Positions 10,401-58,400 of a stretch of DNA of 64,000 nt are shown one piece after another; the first letter of the stretch is position 1; every line of letters begins with the position of its first letter. The position numbers were made by a program, and so were the translations under genes. The DNA is from Hexactinellida sp. DTS-2022 (taxonomy: Eukaryota; Porifera; Hexactinellida): NCBI GenBank assembly GCA_028753945.1, contig JAPNXP010000002.1:13950001-14014000 (forward strand). The letters run 5' to 3'. Under the pieces are notes generated by a model. It was not told the origin of the DNA and did no database searches. It saw nothing but the letters and a program-made list of their open reading frames with translations.

Positions 10401-13400
10401 ATTAAAACTTGCAGTATTAATTATCTGAAGCCTTTATAATTCCACTTCAATAGATTTAAGCTGTGTGAAAATATGCTACAAATGATTTATTTTATTCCTA
10501 CATTTCTTAATTTACTTTACTGGTCTTTTTCTTCTAGTTTGCACAGTTGTTTGTGGTTACTGAAACAACTGACTCTTCTTTTATTATTCTACAAGCTACT
10601 TCTCTAATAGACGGGATTAGTCAAGTTTATGATTCCACATCTAGGAGTAAGAATTTATTTTTTGCTTATTTATTGTTTCCATTTTCTAATTAATTAAAAG
10701 AAATAGTTCTACTGTAAGAAGACTTTAATATTCTGCACTCTGTTATCTAATTAAGGTAAATATACGTATTCACTAAATTTTGTTCGTTGGTTGATTGATT
10801 ACAGTCCCTCCAAAATAAATGCTATCCGCACTACTGAATTTTAGATTTTTTCCATGTCATCATCACCACAAAGGTGTTAAACCATTTGAGAAATGTGTTT
10901 CTGAAGGTGAAAATCCTTAATATTGCTGGAAGTTTCGTTCTAACCTCTTTTCTTTTATAGTTTATCTAGTTTAGTATTAATGTGATCACTGGTTAACAGC
11001 CAATATGAGCTGTTAACAGCAACTGACTAGCTGTTAATTGGAAATACCGCTGTAAAACGGTGTGTTAGATAAGGAACTTGGAAAGATTCAAATTGGATAT
11101 TATACGGGATATTTAGATTTTAACAACGCTGTTAACATCATTTTACAACCCATGCTGATGATTCAACATTTCTTCTGTTATTGTTTGTCAACACCAACCG
11201 ATACTTTCTAATAAAAAAATCACAAAATTTTAACAGATTGTTTGACGATGTCAACTACATTACCCATATGGGTGATTTTTGGCATTCAGGGATATTTTGT
11301 GTCTGGCTCGGACAAGTTCGAGTCATGGATATGTAAATTTTATGAATCTCACTATTAATTATCCTGGATACAGACATTTCGTTTCACGATATTTCGTTTC
11401 TGCAACATATCATTACACGACAGTTTGTTACACGACACTTCGCTACTAATTTCATTGGTAATTCTAAACACCTGAGTGTTATTGTTTATACTGATATTTT
11501 AGCTGCTAGAATGTTATTGAATAAGGTCATGTTTACCTTTGTTGAAATTTAAAGGTTTACCTCCATCACTTATTGTGGAAATAAATAGGAATTTTTTATT
11601 TATTTCATAATTCGCAACACATGGCAACAACAATAATATCAGATAATAATCATCAGTCATTTACCCTCATCAAGTCATCAAGAGGAGGCAATAAGCTGAT
11701 TGAAGGAGGATTTATGGCCTACTATATAATACGGCTAGATAAGTCAAGTATTTGCTCATTTCATTTCCAGGCCAGTGTTTACTTTCTAATTGCTCGTAAA
11801 ATGAATTACCTATCGTCATGGAATATACTAAACTTAGGTTTTCAAATACGCCAAGAAACATCTAAAATACTTTTGAGAATTATTTCTCATCGGATTTAAC
11901 CATAATGACGTAATCAAATATACATACCCATATATGGTAATTAATACTAATTATGAAGTAGAGATTTGAAGTAGAGATTCAGTGAACATTAGCTAAATAA
12001 GTCACAAGAAGGGTCATTAAACTGACTGGGCACAGTGGTTTATTTCGACCATTCACAGGAAGTAGGTATTTCCAGGTCAGATAGACCTATCAAATGTATT
12101 ATATACCAATGAGTTATCGATACCTGTGAATCCATTTATGGACTCAGAAAATTAGTACGGCTTCTTATTTTTAAGTTATGACGTCATAATATTTTTTTAG
12201 ACTCCCATAATTTCCACAAATATTTGCCAAATTAGTATTTTCAAATAAACTAGAGCTAATTAATTTATGTGCAACTCTAAATAAATGCATGGAGTAGATA
12301 TAAATTAACTTGATAATGTAATTCGAGAGCCTAGGCCTGTTAAATAACCAGTTTTATTAACATCAACGATTCGACCAGTTTTTCTTGATCCAATTTTGGC
12401 ATTTGATCACCTTTGCATTTTCTATTCCATTACAGCAACCTGTATAGATTCTGCACCCCGTATACTTCTAAATTATTCATTTTAGTTTACTAATTGATGA
12501 AATTTTGATAAGAAAAATTAAAATCTTTGTATATGAATTTTCAAAGCCCCCGTATATAGACAAGTAGATTTTGGTTTGCGCGGGGTTAGAAAGTGGTTAA
12601 AACAGAAGTTTATTAGGTCATTATACAATAAAAACGTGTCTGGGTACACAGCACTTGACGGCACCACAAAATTATGCACCTCCTAAAAAGGTATATTTCT
12701 GTCCGGACTTTTATTTGAAACATATTTTGTAATGATCCACTACACTTAGAGTTGACGTGATATATATTTGAAACTCAACTGTTTTAGGATGATCTAAGGT
12801 ACAATAATATGTATTGAAAGTCTTAGGTCATAATGAAAGAAGCCTACTGAGAATATGAGCATGATCTAAAGCAAGATTATGAAACCACAAAATTCAAAAA
12901 TAAAATGATTCTGTTGTCATGATTTGATGCATTATATCTCCTAAACCCTTTCGAATTTTTAGCTGAAATTTATCTTTCCTACGTTTTAGCTTATGCTTAA
13001 AACGATAAAAATGGTTTAGTGTGATTTGAGAACATTGAAATTTTGCACTACTTCCTGTCAATAAACCACTGTGCTGGGCAACATGTACATCGTCAAACAG
13101 CACTTTTAAGACTTAGATTAAAATCAAACTATACATTTCAAAAAATACAAAATATATGGTTTGATAACAATAGTATAATTATTTACTTACATTGACGTTG
13201 AAAAGAATTTGAGTGAAAGGAATGACATAATTTGTTACTGTAGTTAGTTATTAACAAGAAAAATGCATTAGGATAAAAACGGCAAAGTTAGATTCTCAAA
13301 TAATCTAAAAAATTAACATTTATTTAACATCGTTGCCATATATGGGTATGTATATTTGATTACGTCATTGTGGTTAAATCTGATGAGAAATCATTCTCAA

Positions 13401-16400
13401 AAGTATTTTAGATGTTTCCAGCGTATTTGAAAACCTAAGTTTAGTTTATTCCAAGACAATAGGTAATTCATTTTACGAGCAATTAGAAAGTTAACACTGG
13501 CCTGGAAATGAAATAAGCAAATACTTGACTTATCAAGCCGTATTATATAGTAGGCCATGGAGGATTCATTTATGGACAACACAGGAGAGTGGGGGAAGTG
13601 AAACATTGGCAATGTGAGAGGAGAGGGGTTTGCAAAGTCAGAGTTCACACGAAGGGATCGCAGATAGTTAATCGCACTAACGAGCATCTCCATGAACCAG
13701 ATGAAGAGTCAGAACTTGTCCCAATACTGGCTTGCTGATGGGGCCTTCAAAACTGCTCCCAAACTATTCCTACAGGTCTATGTAATACATGCTCTCCGAG
13801 GAGGACCTGACCTTCTACAGAATGGTCACCTGTTACCAAGCTTGTTCGTCTTGTTACCCAACAAAACTCAGGCTACCTACACGAGGATGTGGCAACAAAT
13901 TAAAGCACTTTGTCCTACCTCTCATCCAGGATTGTTTGATTTAAATCATGATATAAATCATGATTTATATCAATTATTTTCATTAATAAAATCATGATTT
14001 AATCAAAAATCTTATTTTAATAAAAAATATCCTATTTTATTTATTTAAATCAGATTTATTGATTTAAATCAGATTTTTCATGTCTATTGTCTTTTGCGAA
14101 AAGAAAAGAAATACATTGATAATGAGTCAAATTACATTGATATTGAGTCACTATCAATGTAATTAATCTATTAGCCAAATATTATACGCCAGTGTGATAT
14201 AGATTGCAAAAAAAAAAAAAAAAAATTCTGATTTCGGATTTTTTTATTAAAAAAATTTATGATTTTTATCAACCCTGCGCTCATCCAAGCCAGATGATCA
14301 TGGACTTCGAAAAGGCTGCAATCATCAGCTTTGAGCATGTATGGCATGTCACATCTGTAAAGTGTTGCTTCTTCCATCTGACACAAAACGTTTGGCGCAA
14401 AGTACAATCTGAGGGACTGCAATCAGATTACAATCAGGATGCAGAACTGGCAATACGCATCCGCCTGCTGCCAGCCCTCGCCTTCGCCGCACCCCACGAC
14501 GTACCCCATCTATTTGGCGATGTTGTACAACAACTTCCCATGCCCCCAAACAACCGGTCTGGTCTTATATTTCGAGAACACCTATATCGGGCGAACACTA
14601 CCAGGCGGCACTTACCAGGAGGCGCTGTTTCCCATTGAAAAATGGAATTACCATTTCGACATCCTATTCGGACTACCCCGGATAACTAATATTGTTGAAG
14701 CATGGCACCGTTCCTTTAATGCAACTGTTGGGTGCAATCATCCTACAATTTGGAAGTTTAAGCTTCATTACAACGTGAACAAGGACTGGTCGAGGTGCGA
14801 CAGGCTAAGTTCATTGCAGGAGCTCAGCCACCTAAACGTGTGAAGTCACAAGCTAACGAACAAGCTTTGAAAGAACTCATCGCTAGTTATTTATATCGTC
14901 CCAGAATGGAGTTTCTAAGAGGGGTTGCACACCATTTCAGTATGGATGCTAACTAGTTGTTATTGTGAATATTATACATACAAGCTGCTCGCCCGCGCTA
15001 CGCGCGTTCTTACAACTTGCACTCGGGCCTGTGGCCCTCGCTTGTATTTAAAACAGTTGTATTTTTAAATACATACTCCAATAGACTTAATGCAAATTGA
15101 GTAATGTATGTGCATGATTGAGCTCAAACTGATTCTAGGAGCCTATAAAAATGTCGGTTATGTAACGAAAAATTAACAAAATTATATACCCCCTCCCTAC
15201 ATCTCGCTTTTTGCCATTTTGTAATAAAAAAGGACGGGCTGTAATACTTACCCCTTGGCATTACTTAAAATTCAACGGCCCTATGCACAGGTTCATTATA
15301 TTACGGGAAATCATATGAGTAATATTTAGGTGACCGCTAGTGACACACATAACAGTAATGCTATTGTTTCAGAGTAGGGCTGTGCCCCCCTAAGCTGTCT
15401 ATTTATCCATGGGCCCTAGGGCCTACGCCTAGCCATAGGTATATACAGTCAACATCCGGTAACTCGAATGCCCGTTAACTCGAACATTCGTTATCTCGAA
15501 CGGATTTTTCATTCCCCTGAGGGTTCGAGTTACCGGATGTTGACTGTACGTATAAGGAGTCCTTATACGTACAGTCAACATCCGGTAACTCGAACCCTTT
15601 TTATTTTCTGTCCTTATTAAGGACAGAAAATAAATTGGGAAATACTAATCAGCGCCTGTATTGTTGAATATTTATGCTAATTAGAACTTACAATTTTCTA
15701 GATATTAACGCATGTCCGTGTATATTAATGACCCGACTCCAAATATAAATTAATTAAATATCACTAAGGAACTGTACAACTCTGTGGACCCCTGACTTTG
15801 GGCTGTGGAGAAGTTATTGAATTGATTGGTAATAATCAAATAGACACAATGGAATGTTAGAAATGTATGGGTAGACAGTAAACACAATAACTGATTGGAT
15901 GAATGAACTTCCTCAAGACCAATTAAATCACAGTCTCAGATAGGCATTCTATAACGCACACTTGACAATTGATAGAGAGACTGAAATCCTTTTATACGAA
16001 TTGAATGCTAGCTGCTAATCCATACTGGAAAATCCTCGAATTTAATAGGCTAAAGTTTTGTCACCTTTAGGGAAGGGATGATGTTATTTTTTTTCTTAGA
16101 TATTACAACTTGTTCCTAGAAACAATATTTTCCACCGCCCTGCCAAATTTCAAGTCTGTAGCTCTTACCAGTTCCTCAATCAATTCCGAACAAAAAAAAA
16201 AAAAAATCATTGTGATTTAATATATAAGATAAGTTATTTCTTTTTGGATCTTATTGTGAATACAAGATGCTATCAATTAATTAAATTTGTACTATACAAT
16301 CTATACCAGCGTTTCTCAACCGGGCCCCGTGGCCCCCCTGGGGGGCCACGAGCCCTTCCCCACGAGGCTTTTTGTTGAAGGGTAGGGGGCCACGGGTACT

Positions 16401-19400: not shown

Positions 19401-22400
19401 TTAAAAAAATTGCTTATATATTTAACTACTTAGGCACCATAAATCACTGTCGTCATTGTGCAATTCTGGGCTAGTGTCTCCGGGTTTTTGATTAGTTGAT
19501 ATAATAAAAAGGTTGTGCTACTGTGAGAAGTATTATGCTTGCCTTGTGCATTTAATCCATCTGCTGTGGTATCGATGCCTGCCTTGTGCATTTAATCCAT
19601 CTGCTGATAGACGAGGCAGAAGCAGGTTTGTGTGGTTTATTGTTATAAATAGAGACGTATGTTTGTCTCTAATAGGACGCGTTGAGGACAGGCATGGCCT
19701 ACTATATAATACGGCTAGATAAGTCAAGTATTTGCCATTAAATTTCCAGGCCAGTGTTTACTTTCTAATTGCTCGTAAAATAAATCACCTATTGTCTTGG
19801 AATAAACTAAACTTAGGTTTTCAAATACGCTGGAAACATCTAAAATACTTTTGAGAATGATTTCTCATCAGATTTAACCACAATGACGTAATCAAATATA
19901 CATACCCATATATGGTAATGATATTAAATAAATGTTAATTTTTTAGATAATTTGAGAATCTAACTTCGCCGTTTTTATCCTAATGCATTTTTCTTGTAAA
20001 AAAACTAACTACAGTAACAAATTATGTCATTCCTTTCACTCAAATTCTTTTCAACGTCAATGTAAGTAAATAATTATGCTATTGTTATCAAACCATATGT
20101 TTTGTATTTTTTTGAAATGTATAATTAGATTTTAATCTAAGTCTTAAAAGTGCTGTTTGACGACTTAGATGTTGCCCAGTCAGTTTAATGACCGTTCTTG
20201 GGACTTATTTAGCTAATGTTCACAAAATCTCTACTTCAATCTCTACTTCATAATTAGTATTAATTACCATATATGGGTATGTATATTTGAATACGTCATT
20301 GTGGTTAAATCCGATGAGAAATCATTCTCAAAAGTATTTTAGATGTTTCCAGCGTATTTGAAAACCTAAGTTTAATTTATTCCATGACAATATGTATTTT
20401 ATTTTACGAGCAATTAGAAAGTAAACACTGGCCTGGAAATAAAATGGCAAATACTTGACTTATCTAGCCGTATAATATAATAGGCTATGGGACAGGTAAG
20501 CGTTTAGAGCAGTGAGCGGACATAGTTTACTGTTCGCTGTGAATTTATGTATGTGAATCGGTTTCATCTAGGGTTGGGACGGATGCGAATTTTTCCACAT
20601 CCGCTAATACGGATGTGCATGCGGATGCCAAATTTTTAATTCCGCAGATTCGGATGCGGATGCGGAGTTTTTATCTTTACATCCGCGAATACGGATACGG
20701 AGCTCAAACCTATTGGCTTTCATTATACAATTGTCCTATATTTTAGTATAATCTTTTGTGAACATAATCCTATGTATATGGTTGAAACACAAAATTATGT
20801 TAGACAATTAGGGTAGTGGACTATTAGATAAGTTGAGAAGTAGACTATTAGAGAGAACATACTTTAAATGGGAGGGGACGGATGTGAAATTCATAAACTC
20901 CGCGGATGCAGATGTTAGGCGGATGCGAGATTTTTAAACTCCGCGGATTCGGATGTAAAGGCGGAGTTAATAAATCATGCGGAGCTCCGCGGATACGGAT
21001 ACGGATGCGGATGCGGAGCTCTGTCTCATCCCTAGTTTCATCATACGTTTATTCTAAGTTTTTGATCTGGGAATTTCGAAGATTGCTCGTTCTGAGTCTA
21101 GATTCATGTGCTCTGTTGATAAGCTTGCAATTTTTGAGCACCGTGATGCTGTGGTTAGTGCAATTAATGTAGCAATTTTGAAGGTGTTTGCTTTGAGGGT
21201 TGAGGCGTTGCTTTGAGAGTTGAGGCGTTGCTTTGTTCAAGGTAGATTATAAGCTGTTTTACGTCACATGTACTGGAATATCGCAGTTTTTTGGCTCTAA
21301 GTTGCCCATTCCTTTTAGTAAGCGAGAGATAAGTGCGTCTTTGCCTACATCGTTACCCTGCACTACCTCTAACGAAGTAGAGATAGCTGACCTGAATGTT
21401 GAGACCCAACTAGTTGACTTCTGTGAGTCAAAATATTCCGTTAAAAAAGCAATTATATCATACAGGTCGGGTTTCAGGTGGTTGATTGTTTTAAGGGTAC
21501 ACTATGTTACCCATTTTTCCAAGCGGAAGTGATGATTTTAGAGTAGAAGGTCTCCAACTTTGTCATATTATGTCACTGGAGCGTTTAGAGACACCTCTTG
21601 CGATGAGCAAGTCCCTGATACTACACAGCTAGTAGGTTCATCCTCTTGGATAAAATTTGAGGATGAAGGTTGCCCTCTACATCCGTGAGCAGAATCGGAA
21701 GTTGTGGTAGGTGGATTGGTTCTTGTATCAGGGCCGTAGTAGCACAGGCCACCAAGGTCTTGAGGGCCAAATGGGTACAATTAAGATTGCCTTGCTCACT
21801 TCGTCCAGGCGAAGCTTGTTTAGGACTCGGCCAATCAATATCATTGGTGTGAACAGGTATGGATATGTCAGATTCGTCCAACTGTGGACGAATGCATTCA
21901 CTGCTACTGCTCCCGGTTCTGGTCTCCAGCTCATAAACCTGGGAAGCTGGGTATTCAGTCGAGAGGCAAATAGGTCCATCTCCGGTTCTAGCTTCACCTG
22001 CTGTAAAGTCCACCTGAATATATCGGGCAACAGTTGCCAGTCGCTCCAATCCTGGTTTGGGAGGAGGGATAGTTTGTCCGCCTCTATGTTTTCTACACCA
22101 AGTAGGTGCTCTGCAGTTAGAGTGACATTGTTCGATATCGCAAACTTGTGAAGTTGGAGGGATAGGCTGCAGAGGGCTTGGTAGGGGATGCCTCCCAGCT
22201 TGTTTATGTAACGGGTTGCAGCGCGATTGTCGGTCTGAATTAGTACGTGTGTGTTGGGTTTGGAGAAGAGGGTGATCCCAAACATTATAGCTTTCAGCTC
22301 TAGAGCGTTTAGGTGTAGCTGTTTCTCTTCCTGTGACCAGTGTCGTGACGCTTTCTGCTCCCTGCGTACTACTCCCCACCCAGTGAGGGATGCGTCGGTT

Positions 22401-25400
22401 TGCATAGTATTGCTGATATTCGGTTTCAGGATAGGACACATATTCCAAGCTGTTGAACTGGATGTCCACCATTTCAGGTCTAATAAGGCCTGAGGTCCCA
22501 GCGTAATCGACTGATTGTATTTGCCTCCGGAGGCGTGGAGGGCTCGTATGAGCTCGAATTGAATTGATCGGTAGAATATAGGTGCTGGGCTGATTGCAGT
22601 TTTTGAAGAGCTCAGTCAGACCTAGTAGGGCTGCTAACTGGCGAGCCGTGCACGTAGTATTGCGTATCATAGCTCTGCATCTCGTTTTGATGGTTGTTAG
22701 TGTCGACAGTGGTAGTTGGAACGTCATGGTGGTTGTGTTGACCGTAAAGCCTAGGAACTCCATGACCTGATTCGGGGTTAATATCGATTTCTCCCGATTG
22801 ACAATGAAACCCAGTTGTGAGAGCATTTTGATTACCCAGTGCGTATGTAGAGCGGTTGTATTCGGACCGTGTGCAATTATTAACATCTCGTCCAGGTATA
22901 CGAGTAGTAGCACACCCCAGCCCCGGAGAATTGCAACCGGGCGTTTCATGATCTTGGTAAAGATAAAGTGTTTGATGTTCAGTCCGAAGGGCATTGTTGT
23001 GTATTGATACAGTACGTTATCCCATTCGAACTGGAGGTAGTTTCGGGAGTCCGTATGGACAGCAACTGTCAGGTAGGCATCTTTGAGGTCTATTTTGGTC
23101 ATATAGTCTCCCTGTGTGATTATGTATCGGACACACTGAATGCCTTCCATTATGAAGTGTGGAGGGGAAAGATATTTTTGAGGAGTTGAGGTTCAGGATT
23201 AGCCTCCAATGACCTGAAGATTTCTTGCGAAATAAAGTCGGGCTTGTGAACCTTAGGTTTTGCGTAAATTGAATGGCTTTTATAGTGAGTAGTTCCTGGC
23301 GTATAAGGACAGTTTGTTCCTTTGGAAGTTTATTGGTTCGCAGTGACGTAGTCGGTACTGATGTTAGGGGTAGAATAAGGACCTCTACTTATGCCAAGAT
23401 CTTGCTCCCTGGGGATATTAGAGCCCAGTTGTGGTAGAACTAGGGCAGACGTCCCGTCAGTGGTGGTTCGACGGACGGAGGCCATATTAAGTCGAGCAGG
23501 CTCAGAGGGATTAGTGCCTGTAGTTGCCAGAGGTGTTGCCCCTGTATGGCCTTCTGGGATATGATACTCGGGATTTCCTCTGAATCGGCCCCACTGAATC
23601 TCGTGCCTCCTGTGGAGCCCCTTCGAAAAAATGGCTCAGTTTGAAGTCGGCATTCTCACGAGAGTTGGAGTAAGTTTGTTGTCTGTTTTTTTCCTCTTAG
23701 CTGGACGTTCTGCAGCTAGTTTCTCAAAGGTAGACCGGTCCCTCTGAGTTTCAATGAGGGTTTTTAGGTTGTTGGGGCCAAAGACAAAGTTTGTTTGCTC
23801 ATCAGGGGGAGAGACTCTACCTCGCTGACTAACGCCGCGTTTACCGCCCTGATTGCGTTTTTCCTTCTGGCAAGTAGGATTCTAGTGGTGGTGGCACCAA
23901 GTAGAACTAGAGTCGCTGATGCTACTCCACCATTTGGTCTTGAGTAATTATATTACCTTCACATACTTTGTGATTAGTTCATACAAGGGGCCAACCGTAT
24001 GCAATGTAGATCGCTGGATTTCCTTCAGTATTTCGTCACGAGCTTTTACAAATCCGAAATCTCGTTTTTGAAAATGTGAGTCTAGCTTGTGGAATCTCAT
24101 AGCAGAGAAGTCCGGCCCTTTGTACTGCTTAGCCATCTCAATTCGGTGTTCAGAGTCCAATGACTGTGAGAAGTGCTTAGTAAAGTAAGCACATATGTTA
24201 TCCGGTGCACCGGCAAATTATTTATTTTCCACAAGCCCACTGGGGTCAAAGAAGTAAATGGGTTGGGCAGATTGGACTGTATTTTGTATAGGAGTTTTCG
24301 CAATCGTCATAGATTCCGTTTGAAGCTGCACTTCCTGGCTTAGGGTGGGAGCCTGAGCAGCTAGATGGTCAGTGATCACTGTCATGGACTTCTACAGTCC
24401 TTTGAATGCCTGCAATAATTGCAGGGAGTTACCAGGCACCAAATTCGGGTAAGGCCCGACCGGGTTGCGGGAGGCATAATGGTCAGCAATAGCTACCGCG
24501 TCCCTATTACTTGGCACGATGCCAGAAATGGTAACATTGGGGCCACCCGGGGCTGACTCGTTTGGGACCATATCTTGGTTAAGTAATTGGTCCTGGAGAA
24601 AGAAATCCGCTGTTTCAGATTCTTGTGCGGTGCATTCTTCAGAGTCTGAGCTGTAATTTGAATGTGGAGTGTAGGGCTCACACATCGAGGTCTTAATTAG
24701 AAAATAGAATAGTTAGTTACCTATGTAAAAGGAGAATATTTAGATAGAAATGAAATCGCTAGAAGATGCACAGTAGAGTAAACAGGGAATATATAGTACC
24801 TAACATACTATACGGGTGGCATTTTCACCTTAAGTGTAAACATTTACTGATAGAAGTGTTAAATTGCGACCTTGGAGAACTATTCAACCTTATGTCATTG
24901 TCCGGTGAAGCCATGAAGTAGAGTTCAACTATGAACTTGAAGATTTCATATATTCACATGTAAGCAGAGGCGTAGCCAGGGTGCGGCACTTGGGGTACAA
25001 GCCGCACCCAAAAAGATTTGAGCCCACAAAAATTCCCACTAGTATAATACTATAGTGCGGAAATGCCGAAACCATAATCTACCAGTGCCGCACCTTCATG
25101 CAGGCCTATTCCGGCTCTGCATGTAAGATCCAGTGTTAAATACCAATATCTGAGATCTACCCTATATAGAAACTTGAAGTGTAAAGGTTTTGGAAAGATA
25201 GACCTTACTTTAAGTTTAAACCAATTCATTCTAACATAAGACCATAACCATGAAGTCGATGCATATAAAACCAAATAAATTGCTCTTCGAAATAAGCTAA
25301 AGAGAGCGGCGGAAACATCAAGTAGTAGGTTACGTGATATTTTTGATGATACATACCGTAATGACCAATGCAACACAAATTTTTCACATCAGTTTCGATG

Positions 25401-28400
25401 GCACTATTTATATACGTGCTACATAAGATATTATGCCAGTTATTTATCTATTTGGAATCGTGTAAGGAAGGTTTGTCTAGTTAATATTTATCGGACGAAT
25501 TCTGAATTTATTAAATAGCTCCGTTGTACATATTATGGCACTACCTTTATTGCCACAAAATGAAATTTCACTATATTTATCCTTCTTAGAGATCAAATAA
25601 TACCTGATTTAAGTCAATCACAAGAGAGTAATTTAAGACAATTTAAGAAGTACATTAAGAAACAACGGGTGTTAAGAGAGAATAACTCCTCTGTTTTTGA
25701 ATTTCCTAATGAAAAACTAATAACATACATAAAATGTCTGAAAATACAAGATGCCCAACTTGCAAGAGCGAAAGTACCCTGTCAATTCGACTTTTCCAAT
25801 AATATTATTTGCGTCTAATAAATATAGGTTCATTTTAATTTGAGCTTCATTGTCTTAATTTACTTGACTTTTGTTTTCTCATTCATTAAATAATTATGTT
25901 TGTTAATTCATAAAATACAACATTGTTAAACACTTTGATCAAAATCCTACATCAATATAAACGTTGATCAAAATCCTACATAGGATATAGTTGATCAAAA
26001 TTCCACATACTCGTTGATCAAAATATACAGTCCCGTTTATTTATCATGAATGATATTTTGAGGAGGATAATATGGCCGCGAAGCTTCCGTTAATTGTGTT
26101 GCATAGAGTATAACAAGAACGAACAAAGGGCGCGAAATGGCCGAGACCCATTTGTTCTTACTACTATGTGCACCAATTTAATGTATTATTTATGCTCACC
26201 AAATATACTGTGTCTTTATATAACGATCTCTATTTGTTGTCTTTTTAATAATCTATCGAAAAGCTTTTTAGTTTGTTGAACTAATACTTTAATTGATTTG
26301 CATTGTGAAATGTAGTTTAATTTTGCTTTCTTTAGAACTTTATTGAAGGAAATTTTTCGAAGAGACTCTTGAATAATATTGTTATTCTTGATAACGATAT
26401 CGGGCTGAATATCTCATATGCACAGGTATACAGTTCAGTATCTTGTTTTTATTTATTTAGACACATTAGATTGTATGATTTATATTTACAATTGTTTTTT
26501 TTCATATCTACTACACTAACAGGCCAAACATTTGTAATGTTAATGCAGACTCAATATTCTTCTAGCAGCGCATTAACTGCTGTTTAATTCATTGATTTGC
26601 TCCGTTACTAGTAATGGAGTAACGGTAACGGTAGCGGAAAAAATAACGGTAACGGGTGTCGACAAGTAACGGTGACGAAAAAAGTAACGGTAACGGGCGT
26701 CGCGGAGTAACGGTAACGGACATCCGTCACTTTTAACTAGTTACCGTTGTCTTTAATCAGTTACTCTTACCATTACATTACCGTAACCATGGCCTACTAT
26801 ATAATACGGCTAGATAAGTCAAGTATTTGCCATTTTATTTCCAGGCCAGTGTTTACTTTCTAATTGCTCGTAAAATAAATTACTTATCGTCATGGAATAA
26901 ACTAAACTTAGGTTTTCAAATACGCTGGAAACATCTAAAATACTTTTGAGAATGATTTCTCATCGGATTTAACCACAATGACGTAATCAAATATACATAC
27001 CCATATATGGTAATGATATTAAATAAATGTTAATTTTTTAGATAATTTGAGAATCTAACTTCGCCGTTTTTATCCTAATGCATTTTTCTTGTAAAAAAAC
27101 TAACTACAGTAACAAATTATGTCATTCCTTTCACTCAAATTCTTTTCAACGTCAATGTAAGTAAATAATTATGCTATTGTTATCAAACCATATGTTTTGT
27201 ATTTTTTTGAAATGTATAATTAGATTTTAATCTAAGTCTTAAAAGTGCTGTTTGACGACGTACATGTTGCCCAGTCAGTTTAATGACCGTTCTTGTGACT
27301 TATTTAGCTAATGTTCACTGAATCTCTACTTCAATCTCCACTTCATAATTAGTATTAATTACCATATATGGGTATGTATATTTGAATACGTCATTGTGGT
27401 TAAATCCGATGAGAAATCATTCTCAAAAGTATTTTAGATGTTTCCAGCGTATTTGAAAACCTAAGTTTAGTTTATTCCATGACGATAGGTACTTTATTTT
27501 ACGAGCAATTAGAAAGTAAACACTGGCCTGGAAATATAATGGCAAATACTTGACTTATCTAGCCGTATAATATAGTAGGCCATGCCGTAACACAGTAACC
27601 GTTACTACTTTAAACTTATTACATTGCCATTACACGTTATTTTAATTCAGTTACCGTTACATTAAGGTAACTGTACTGAATAAAGTTAAGCGGATAAACT
27701 TAACAAAAGTAACGGAGTAACGGTAACAGAAGAAATAAAATAACGGTAACGGAGTAACGGTAACGGGAGATGTAAAGTAACGGTAACGGAGTGACGGAAG
27801 ATTTAAGAACGGAGCACATGACTGGTTTAATTAAAGTACTCCATATTTTACAGAATTAATTAACATATATTGCTCTATTCTAGACTTCATAACATATTGT
27901 TTCTAAGTCATTCTCATCCAATATCAATGAAGTGGCAATAGTCTACCCACGTCCACCACGTGCCACTTGTAGTACAAGTGACACAACTGGGAGATTGTGG
28001 CTGTATCTCAGTAGGAATTAATTATGATGATTAGAAATTAAGCACCTAGAGTAATTCGGTGTATTGTATTCAAATCTGAAATCATAATTTAAGTATTCTA
28101 ACTGCCTATTATTTGGTCAGAAAATATATATTTTATAACTCATCATATAGTTAATGAGTTTAACACCTCCATAGATATTAGAATTCAAAATATTTGCTAT
28201 TTTATTTACTTTACATATCTATCGTTTTATGTAAATACCATTGTTGATGCATCTACCAATGCTATTATGCTGCTAGAAGCTTGAATGTATAAATACAAAT
28301 TATTGCTGTTCAAATACTTTTGGCCGGATAGTGAAAATCGGTAGATGACGTAAAGTTTATTCGATATGGAATTTTACCTAAAATGTTATTTAAACGAAAT

Positions 28401-55400: not shown

Positions 55401-58400
55401 CTACTAAGTTAACTTAACTTATAAGAATTTTCTTTTATTGACCCTGAGACGTTGGTGTTTAATTAGAACATTGTATTATATATCTTGTAGTACTTGCTTT
55501 ACTTTAGGGGAAGTTTATTATTCTATTTTCAACAATTATTACTTTAATTCTTTTTTTCTAAAAGTTTCTGTTTTTTCAGTCGATAGTATTCCCTCTGCTC
55601 CTCTATTAAGGCTAATTGTGCTGAAAAAACCTCCATTTGTTTGCAGAGAACTTCTTGCTGTAGAGGAAGTAGATCAGAGGCTGATAATGACCTCGCTGAA
55701 GATTTTTCGGCGCTCCTCTTACGTTTGCGGGTACGTATTCCAACAGCAGAACTATTGTTTACAAGAACTTCTGGTGCGTCGAGGATCATGGAACTTGATT
55801 CAATGATAAGTTCTTCAGGTAGGGAATTTGATGGTCCTTCGAACAAATCTGTACTTCCCATAATTCCACTAAATGCTGGTGTACCCTCTAGCATATCTGT
55901 TACCCTCTCCGTTGCAGTGGTTGACAAGTCTTTGTCAGCAGAAAGGATAAGTATAGCCTCGTCACTTATCTCTCCAACTGCATTTGGTCCTCCTCCTGTC
56001 TGTCTTGATTCTCGACGACTACTATCGACATGAGACTTTGCAGCTCCCTTGAGATTATTCCATTTTTTCTTAAGGTCTTTAACATCTCTATTGTTTCCAT
56101 GGATCGAGTTAACCTTTCCTACCATATCGGTCCACAGTGATTTCTTCTTCCTATTGAGGTCAGCACAGTGCCCAGTACCTCTGAGTAAATCACCAGCGGA
56201 TTGAATCGCGTCGATGAGTGTATACTCTTCCTCTTTGGACCAGTTACTTTTTCGAGGTTTTTCCATTTTCTTTAGCTGAAATTCAAATAATCACTTTAAT
56301 TTATACTTTTGCAATAACAACAGCCGATGCAATTGTACTCGACGATATTTCTCAAGCACGAAAATCGCAGGAACTTCAAAGAGAATATTCTTTTTACAGT
56401 TAAAAGAATAAAGCAAGCTAATACAATAGCATTCCATACACTAATATGCTATGCTATTACATCCCATGTTGCATTACATCCCTAACTTAATTTAAATGCG
56501 TTTAGACTCTTGAGTAACCTCGGGACAGGGTTAATTTGACTCAATTAAACGGTGAAATCTATTAACAGTGGCTCTATTAAGCGGATAATACTGTATTAAC
56601 AATATACAATACTGCTATTGAAATATTAGCTGAAATTATGAATGGAGAATTGATCTCGATAATGTTTGGCAGCCATATGGCCAGTATCCTCAACCTCAAA
56701 CAGCTCACTCGGATCAGTTACATTGGAGAATTCGTCATCTAATAGAGGTTGTTTCCACATAATTGCCATATTATGCAATACTGCACAAGCAACTATTATC
56801 ATGCATACTTTATCTGGAGACATCCGAAGTTCGCCCTGAAGACAATGAAATCTACGTTTCCATCTTCCAAATGTTTGCTCAATTATAACACGTGTTTTCT
56901 TATGAGCATAGTTATAATTGGATTGGGGAGTCGAGGCTCGTTGTCGATAGGGTGTCAGTAAGTAGGGCTTTAGCATGTAACCACTATCCCCTAATATGTG
57001 CTCCCCGATTAATAAGTTGTTTTCAACATATATTCCAGCCCGAGAAAGCTTCCAAATGCGAGAATCGTGAACAGATCCAGGAAAACGAGCCAACACATCA
57101 CTAATTATACCATCCGATCGACATATAACTTGGACATTAATTGAGTGGTAAAAATGTCGGTTCACGTAATCTGCTTCATTTTCAGATGGTTTTTGAATGC
57201 GTATATGTGTCCCGTCAACTAGTCCAAGGACGCCTGGAAAATGAGCAATTTCGTAAAATTTGTTCTTGACTTCTGCCTTCTCAGCTGAGCTTGGCATACT
57301 AACATACTGGTTGTATATATCCTGAAAACCTTGTGAAACATCATGAATATAGCGAGAAGCTGAAGACTGGCTTACATTAACTCCATCTCCACAGATTATC
57401 TGGAACATTCCAGAAGCAAAAAACTGAAGTGCAACACAAACCTGTAAATGTGGGGGAGCGGCATGGGAGCGATCTGTAAAGTTTAAACGATGAGCTATTA
57501 ACTCAGTGATTCTTGAAATTGATGATCTAGAGAAGCGGAAACGTTGAACAAGTTCCAAATCATCATAACAATCTAAGGGATCAGTAATATCCCTAAAAAT
57601 TCTTGGACGTGCCATAGATGAAGAGTTTTCTTCTTCTTCTTCTAGAAATAGTGGAATCATTTGTGCCATTTGTAAGAATTTTGTGAAATTGAATGAATCA
57701 GATTTAAATCACAGATTTATACTTAATTGCGTAATCAGTTATCAAACAATTGATGGATTTATGGTTACTTGGAATGTTAATTTAACGTTAAAATGCAAGA
57801 TACAAAATTCAAAATAATAATTAAGTTCTCTATTTGAATAAAGAAAATACCATGCATTCCTTTGCAACTAGCATTTGTGTAATTAAGTTCTCTATTTGAA
57901 TAAATAATAATGCATGCATTCGTTTGCAACTAGCAATTGTGTAGTGAAAAATATTCACCAACATGCTGAAACCTATTTTAGTGTGCTTCTTCTAGTAAAA
58001 CCGTTATAGTAGGGTCCTACTATAGTTGTATACTATAAGTGAATTGAATTCGTTCTGATAGAGTTCCGTCCGGCCGGAAAAAAATATAGAAAATAAAAAA
58101 ATATAGTGGTTGTATTCTCCTAAGGATGTTCTTTCTATATATCAATTAAAATGAATAGGTCGCTAATCAATTCTCCGTTTTATTAACGGTTTTCTTTTAC
58201 GGAAATCAGCCATCTTCTCCATATTGTATTGTACTCTTATGGTAGACTGAATACTATAGAATATACAGTATTACATAACTATACTGCTCTATAATGACTG
58301 TTATTGATTGGTTATAGCTTCAAAGTGAATTTTTGTTTCATACAATTGAAATAAAAACACTTGGACAGTTGATTGATGATGTCAATTAGTAGAATTGACA

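Follow-up and report, generated by a model that had tools for sequence, protein, structure and literature searches.

Transib elements, HzTransib included, presumably have CAC-type ends and make 5-bp target-site duplications. Most Transibs are described as symmetric (PMC8289069, PMC8355894). Asymmetry in Transib is already in print (PMC9435367, PMC8355894): the Subgroup I Transibs have asymmetric ends, an alpha11-alpha12 equivalent and a CTT1 tail (Tao et al. 2022, PMC9435367), Transibs with 12/23-like ends have been reported, and some Transib ends have a heptamer and a nonamer identical to those of canonical RSSs (both PMC8355894). Asymmetric bipartite ends and 5-bp duplications are also found in ProtoRAG of the lancelet, which prefers unequal ends (PMC8289069), and AanRAGL of Aureococcus has two conserved elements per end (PMC9435367). 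Invertebrate RAGL has, on the other side, been argued to be relatively insensitive to end asymmetry (PMC7204232), which counts against a pairing preference in the elements described below. Autonomous Transibs are said to be present typically in one to few copies per animal genome (PMC4411706). The origin of the 12/23 rule is debated.

The present element lies in a window of 64,000 nucleotides from the glass sponge Hexactinellida sp. DTS-2022. The features of the locus, in window coordinates, are as follows.

11714-13558, palindromic host MITE carrying the insertion
12026-12030, no strand, left target-site duplication CTGGG
12031-13073, minus strand, non-autonomous Transib element of family A, matched against partner L051
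12031-12044, plus strand, left 14-bp terminal repeat CACAGTGGTTTATT, with the CACAGTG heptamer at 12031-12037
12055-12065, plus strand, long-end copy of the subterminal motif ACAGGAAGTAG, 17 bp past the heptamer, at base 25 of the element
13048-13058, minus strand, short-end copy of the subterminal motif ACAGGAAGTAG, 8 bp past the heptamer, at base 16
13060-13073, minus strand, right 14-bp terminal repeat CACAGTGGTTTATT, with the heptamer at 13067-13073
13074-13078, no strand, right target-site duplication CTGGG
20175-20179, no strand, empty target site in the uninterrupted MITE copy 19693-20485
27270-27274, no strand, empty target site in the uninterrupted MITE copy 26787-27583

An earlier, sequence-only reading had reported the 14-bp repeat on both ends with CTGGG flanks, and this was borne out: exact matches to CACAGTGGTTTATT were found in the window solely at 12031-12044 (plus) and 13060-13073 (minus), and a search allowing as many as 2 mismatches gave 4 hits, versus 0.71 expected. 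In the empty-site test, both flanks of the element were joined and searched against the window. The joined flanks matched the uninterrupted MITE copies at 26787-27583 and 19693-20485 with 95% and 94% identity, respectively, and each copy has a single CTGGG/CCCAG at the insertion point, so the earlier use of these two copies to place the insertion holds. Past the first 14 bp the two ends of family A diverge, apart from the common ACAGGAAGTAG at different offsets; the earlier reading had missed this unequal spacing of the second motif. By comparison with L051, the right end is the counterpart of the transposase 5' side and the left end that of the 3' side. The palindromic MITE itself is present in the window in three copies (11714-13558, 19693-20485 and 26787-27583), is about 0.8 kb long and has long inverted arms.

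It had been suggested that a RAG1-core/Transib transposase be sought between the same 14-bp ends. Such a transposase was found in two partners, with the frames broken in both.

C6:3994235-3997215, 2981 bp, partner L051, same 14-bp ends, transposase in two pieces
C12:2528637-2531672, 3036 bp, partner L052, same 14-bp ends, duplication CGTAT, transposase in three pieces

No uninterrupted transposase frame was seen in these copies with exact 14-bp ends. The C-terminal piece of L051 matched HzTransib with an E value of 9.2e-18, RAG1L with 4e-5 and, weakly, RAG1 with 0.004; the Pfam RAG1 hit of L051, at 22 bits, is under the curated cut-off of 25 bits. Both long ORFs within L051 are transposase pieces, neither of them a RAG2-like gene; a scan of the genome for RAG2 gave no match, and no control genome gave a signal either. 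The relative L100, in which an open 712-aa ORF is found, has ends CACAGTGGGTTATT that are near-identical to CACAGTGGTTTATT and a GGGCA duplication. Its ORF matched HzTransib with an E value of 2.8e-25, and acidic residues align with the RAG1 catalytic positions. CACAGTG also opens the end pairs beside seven other Transib ORFs (L098, L100, L009, L103, L105, L106 and L124). In the genome, a protein search gave at least 100 match rows, 93 candidates having been scored out of 761 at first look. The Pfam RAG1 model matched 33 times, in 15 cases above its cut-off, and Transib ORFs of about 700 aa are present. Judged from sequence, this is a large Transib radiation, and the many Transib ORFs contrast with the published statement on copy number (PMC4411706). 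The exact CACAGTG had been taken earlier as the mark of a notable Transib relative. The Transib kinship stands by way of L051 and L052, but the rarity of an exact CACAGTG was overstated, given the ends described in PMC8355894.

The genome scanned comprised 112.4 Mb in 18 contigs. With the window element as query, at least 43 match rows were obtained (40 of 100 candidates scored), and the 14-mer CACAGTGGTTTATT with at most 1 mismatch occurred 207 times, versus 48 times for the backwards-read pattern. The full-length match rows form two families, A (89-100% identity) and B (77%). Sixteen of the 18 family A copies are within 3.1% of the majority sequence and two are at about 8%, and the 25 family B copies are 0.3-4.4% from theirs; because the copies sit so close to the majority sequence, most of the spread of both families must be recent. 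Family B and L051 share 91% identity across 470 bp, which is what a deletion derivative should show. About 260 bp inside the end of the family B copies and of L051 there is an internal CACAGTGTTTAATT, which is terminus-like and has the same orientation as the end.

Duplications were compared in 48 two-ended elements, namely the window copy, 17 family A and 25 family B copies, L051, L052, L053, L049 and L098. Identical 5-bp duplications flank 44 of the 48, the others being L074, L051 (one mismatch), L053 and L049. Among the 42 non-window A and B copies the longest exact duplication was 5 bp in 41 and none was found in 1; thus the duplication length other than 5 bp that the earlier reading had named as evidence against itself did not occur among them. 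That reading's 5-bp length is retained; its description of the duplication as GC-rich fits the window copy, and the 44 verified duplications have a GC content of 44.5% versus 36.4% in the flanks. The target sites (n=44) show a pattern of approximately YRNYR, with C/T at position 1 in 33, A/G at position 2 in 31, C/T at position 4 in 30 and A/G at position 5 in 26.

The Transib features found are a RAG1-core transposase in same-ended partners, the 5-bp duplication and CAC-heptamer terminal repeats. We read the window element as a non-autonomous Transib that would be moved by cut-and-paste through a RAG1-core transposase from partners whose ends are identical or almost so, and we put the probability of this reading at about 0.87, mainly for the Transib part. 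Descent from the Transib radiation, 5-bp duplication on insertion and unequal bipartite ends are those parts of it that can be read off the DNA itself.

The arrangement of the second motif was compared in ten end pairs, the best off-register match of each pair being scored against 2000 shuffles. A common motif at +9, +10 or +14 was found in 8 of the 10. The offset was +9 for family A (score reached by 0 of 2000 shuffles), L051 (4), L098 (204, not significant alone), L100 (14), L009 (0) and L124 (1); it was +10 for L105 (0 of 2000) and +14 for L103 (1 of 2000). For family B the best match, at -10, was not significant (178 of 2000) and was taken as spurious; at +9, however, the ends of this family agree in 10 of 12 bases. 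L106, despite its CACAGTG ends and perfect duplication, had no second motif common to its two ends in the off-register test (best at -2, 707 of 2000 shuffles). The sequence of the second motif varies between families and agrees between both ends of one family. In all seven readable motif-sharing partners (L051, L098, L100, L009, L103, L105 and L124) it is the short end that lies at the 5' side of the transposase. The GGAA motif was not seen in the 5' end of L126. In the sequence examined, ends were not found for the 3' side of L107, L118, L119, L126 and L127, the 5' side of L097, L101, L108, L122 and L123, or either side of L120 and L121.

The genome was then scanned with three patterns, each consisting of CACAGTGG, a gap of 4-34 and a motif. 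There were 402 ends with GGAAATRGG, 65 with RGGGAATAG and 282 with GGAAKTAG, 749 in all, and the reversed-pattern control gave 0 matches in each of the three scans. For GGAAATRGG, the 100 of 402 matches listed had gaps of 9-10 (39), 11, 12 and 14 (1 each) and 18-20 (58); for RGGGAATAG, all 65 were listed, with gaps of 8-9 (27) and 18 (38); and for GGAAKTAG, the 100 of 282 listed had gaps of 9-10 (47), 19-20 (52) and 26 (1). Hence, among the matches listed, 261 of 265 ends show a gap of 8-10 or 18-20 bp after CACAGTGG; the spacer counted from the heptamer is this gap plus one base. Adjacent inward-facing pairs less than 6 kb apart, again among the matches listed, were heterotypic in 20/20, 19/19 and 17/17 cases in the three scans. 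On contigs C1-C3, for which each of the three lists is whole, the pooled motifs give 182 ends; of the 46 inward-facing pairs among them, 45 consisted of one short and one long end, as compared to 14 heterotypic cases among 30 adjacent ends of other orientations within 30 kb. These pair counts are not independent events, because copies share descent, and more weight belongs to the comparison across families. The lone long/long pair (C1:8766059) was rejected as a single element: a family A copy with a mutated heptamer and its own short-end motif ends near 8767036, and the pair is one of chance neighbours.

On the protein side, a nine-sequence profile of relatives matched HzTransib (3.3e-43) and RAG1L (1.3e-19), and by score HzTransib is nearer than RAG1L to this group. 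One RAG1 stretch matched by the profile (i-Evalue 3.5e-5) starts in the nonamer-binding region and continues into later domains; the RAG1L region corresponding to the RAG1 nonamer-binding domain was unmatched by this profile (domain score -1.1). In place of the 48 profile positions 408-455, HzTransib has 13 residues; the alignment of RAG1L continues across these positions, with structure of low confidence there. With a mean pLDDT of 61 the fold model is weak; its 49 PDB matches at E<=0.001 are all to HzTransib, RAG1 or RAG1L. A C-terminal knuckle, Cx2Cx3GHx5C, is found in 8 of 15 visible tails (3 further tails are outside the view), with variants in the L046 and L103 tails and none in those of L101, L106, L040, L107 and L097. 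A link between this knuckle and the second motif was dropped, as L097 has the GGAAATAGG 3' end and yet is without the knuckle.

In the mechanism that we propose, the window element would receive its RAG1-core transposase from partners that have its termini or very similar ones, and a transposase dimer would cleave beside CACAGTG at both ends. The N-terminal domain of the transposase, within the stretch aligning with the RAG1 nonamer-binding region, would hold the subterminal motif, and synapsis would prefer one near-motif end, about one helical turn from the heptamer, together with one far-motif end at about two turns. Such a 12/23-like preference would operate without RAG2. All of this beyond cut-and-paste by a RAG1-core transposase we infer, and on balance we favor asymmetric synapsis in this Transib group. 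More tentatively, and with somewhat less than even confidence, we suggest a RAG2-free Transib lineage with a one-/two-turn pairing rule, a RAG1-like nonamer-binding domain as reader, an exact CACAGTG, and a second motif whose divergence has run in parallel at the two ends of each family. If true, the logic of the 12/23 rule would predate RAG2 and vertebrate RAG. Natural RAG2-free elements would allow a direct test of the need for unequal ends, because a single genome has both Transib ORFs of about 700 aa and 749 motif-bearing ends, nearly all of the 265 listed being in two spacer classes.

The unequal ends might instead be a frozen accident, in which one end of a single ancestral element was lengthened by about 9-10 bp and the change was passed on, functionless, to all families. 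Copies and families are indeed of common descent, and +9 is frequent among the closest relatives; but the offset varies (+9, +10, +14) and the motif has diverged, yet the one-short-one-long arrangement is maintained, and we consider the accident unlikely. Slightly less likely still is that the subterminal motif is a host transcription-factor site, retained at either end because it serves expression or silencing rather than synapsis. GGAAGT resembles what we take to be an ETS site, and ACAGGAAGTAG would be compatible with an ETS-like core. A YY1-like host factor does act on a site in ProtoRAG ends (PMC7481187). Against a host factor, the GGAA core is missing in L051 (AGGGAGTGGG) and L124 (TAGGTCGATTAG), the ends of which still share a motif at +9, and a motif that changes in step at both ends suits an element-encoded reader better. 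That the ends belong to another superfamily and resemble Transib by chance is most improbable. Other transposases do lie between such ends, namely a MULE/FLYWCH ORF in L050 and, in L049, an ORF that has a TNP-like RNase H domain; but L050 also contains a nearly full family A copy (query 1-1036), and L049 the C-terminal part of a Transib. Seven more CACAGTG end pairs lie beside Transib ORFs, and L051 and L052, which carry Transib pieces and no other transposase, contradict the chance reading.

The non-Transib ORFs of these two loci look like nested insertions. In L050 (C6:2835700-2839100) the MULE/FLYWCH transposase ORF adjoins the family A copy between CACAGTGGTTTATT ends, and a MULE probably inserted near a Transib end. 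L049 (C2:5141900-5151100) is an 8.8-kb interval between Transib ends; besides the C-terminal piece of a Transib it contains the 635-aa ORF that has the TNP-like RNase H domain, which we take to be P-element-like.

The group can be set beside the described systems. Like the Subgroup I Transibs (PMC9435367), it has asymmetric ends (8 of 10 pairs, with L106 excepted and family B weak) and 5-bp duplications. The stretch of its transposase where RAG1L has alpha11-alpha12 may be an equivalent of that region, and the zinc-knuckle C-terminal tail of several families may be a counterpart of CTT1; on these end and protein features the group is a candidate for Subgroup I. The tail spacing is Cx2Cx3GHx5C here versus Cx2Cx3GHx4C (CTT1) in RAG1L. 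HzTransib (PDB 6pqn and related), the closest solved transposase to this group, is unlike it in being described with symmetric ends (PMC8289069). AanRAGL resembles family A in its two conserved elements per end, with spacers of 4 and 13 bp and so a 9-bp difference, and differs in end sequence and in encoding both RAG1L and RAG2L (PMC9435367). ProtoRAG shares the asymmetric bipartite ends and the 5-bp duplications, but has a CACTATG heptamer, 27/31 spacers and RAG2L (PMC8289069); its preference for unequal ends compares here with unequal ends seen as an arrangement alone. The CACAGTG heptamer and the one short and one long spacer are as in the 12/23 RSSs of V(D)J recombination, whereas the second element is a G-rich 9-mer, GGAAATAGG, reached after spacers of about 10-11 and 20-21 bp, versus 12 and 23 bp to ACAAAAACC. 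In the literature searched we found no report combining an exact CACAGTG, a G-rich second motif, one-/two-turn spacing and many diverged families per genome.

Other features were noted in passing. The host genome gave only two zf-C4 (nuclear receptor) matches, a low number that would suit an animal of early-branching descent such as a sponge. On the minus strand of the window, at 55544-57669, are ORFs for DDE_Tnp_4 (56626-57669) and a Myb/SANT-like domain (55544-56266), a pair that presumably represents a PIF/Harbinger transposon. At 21621-23150 the window has a 509-aa ORF with a reverse-transcriptase domain (RVT_1).
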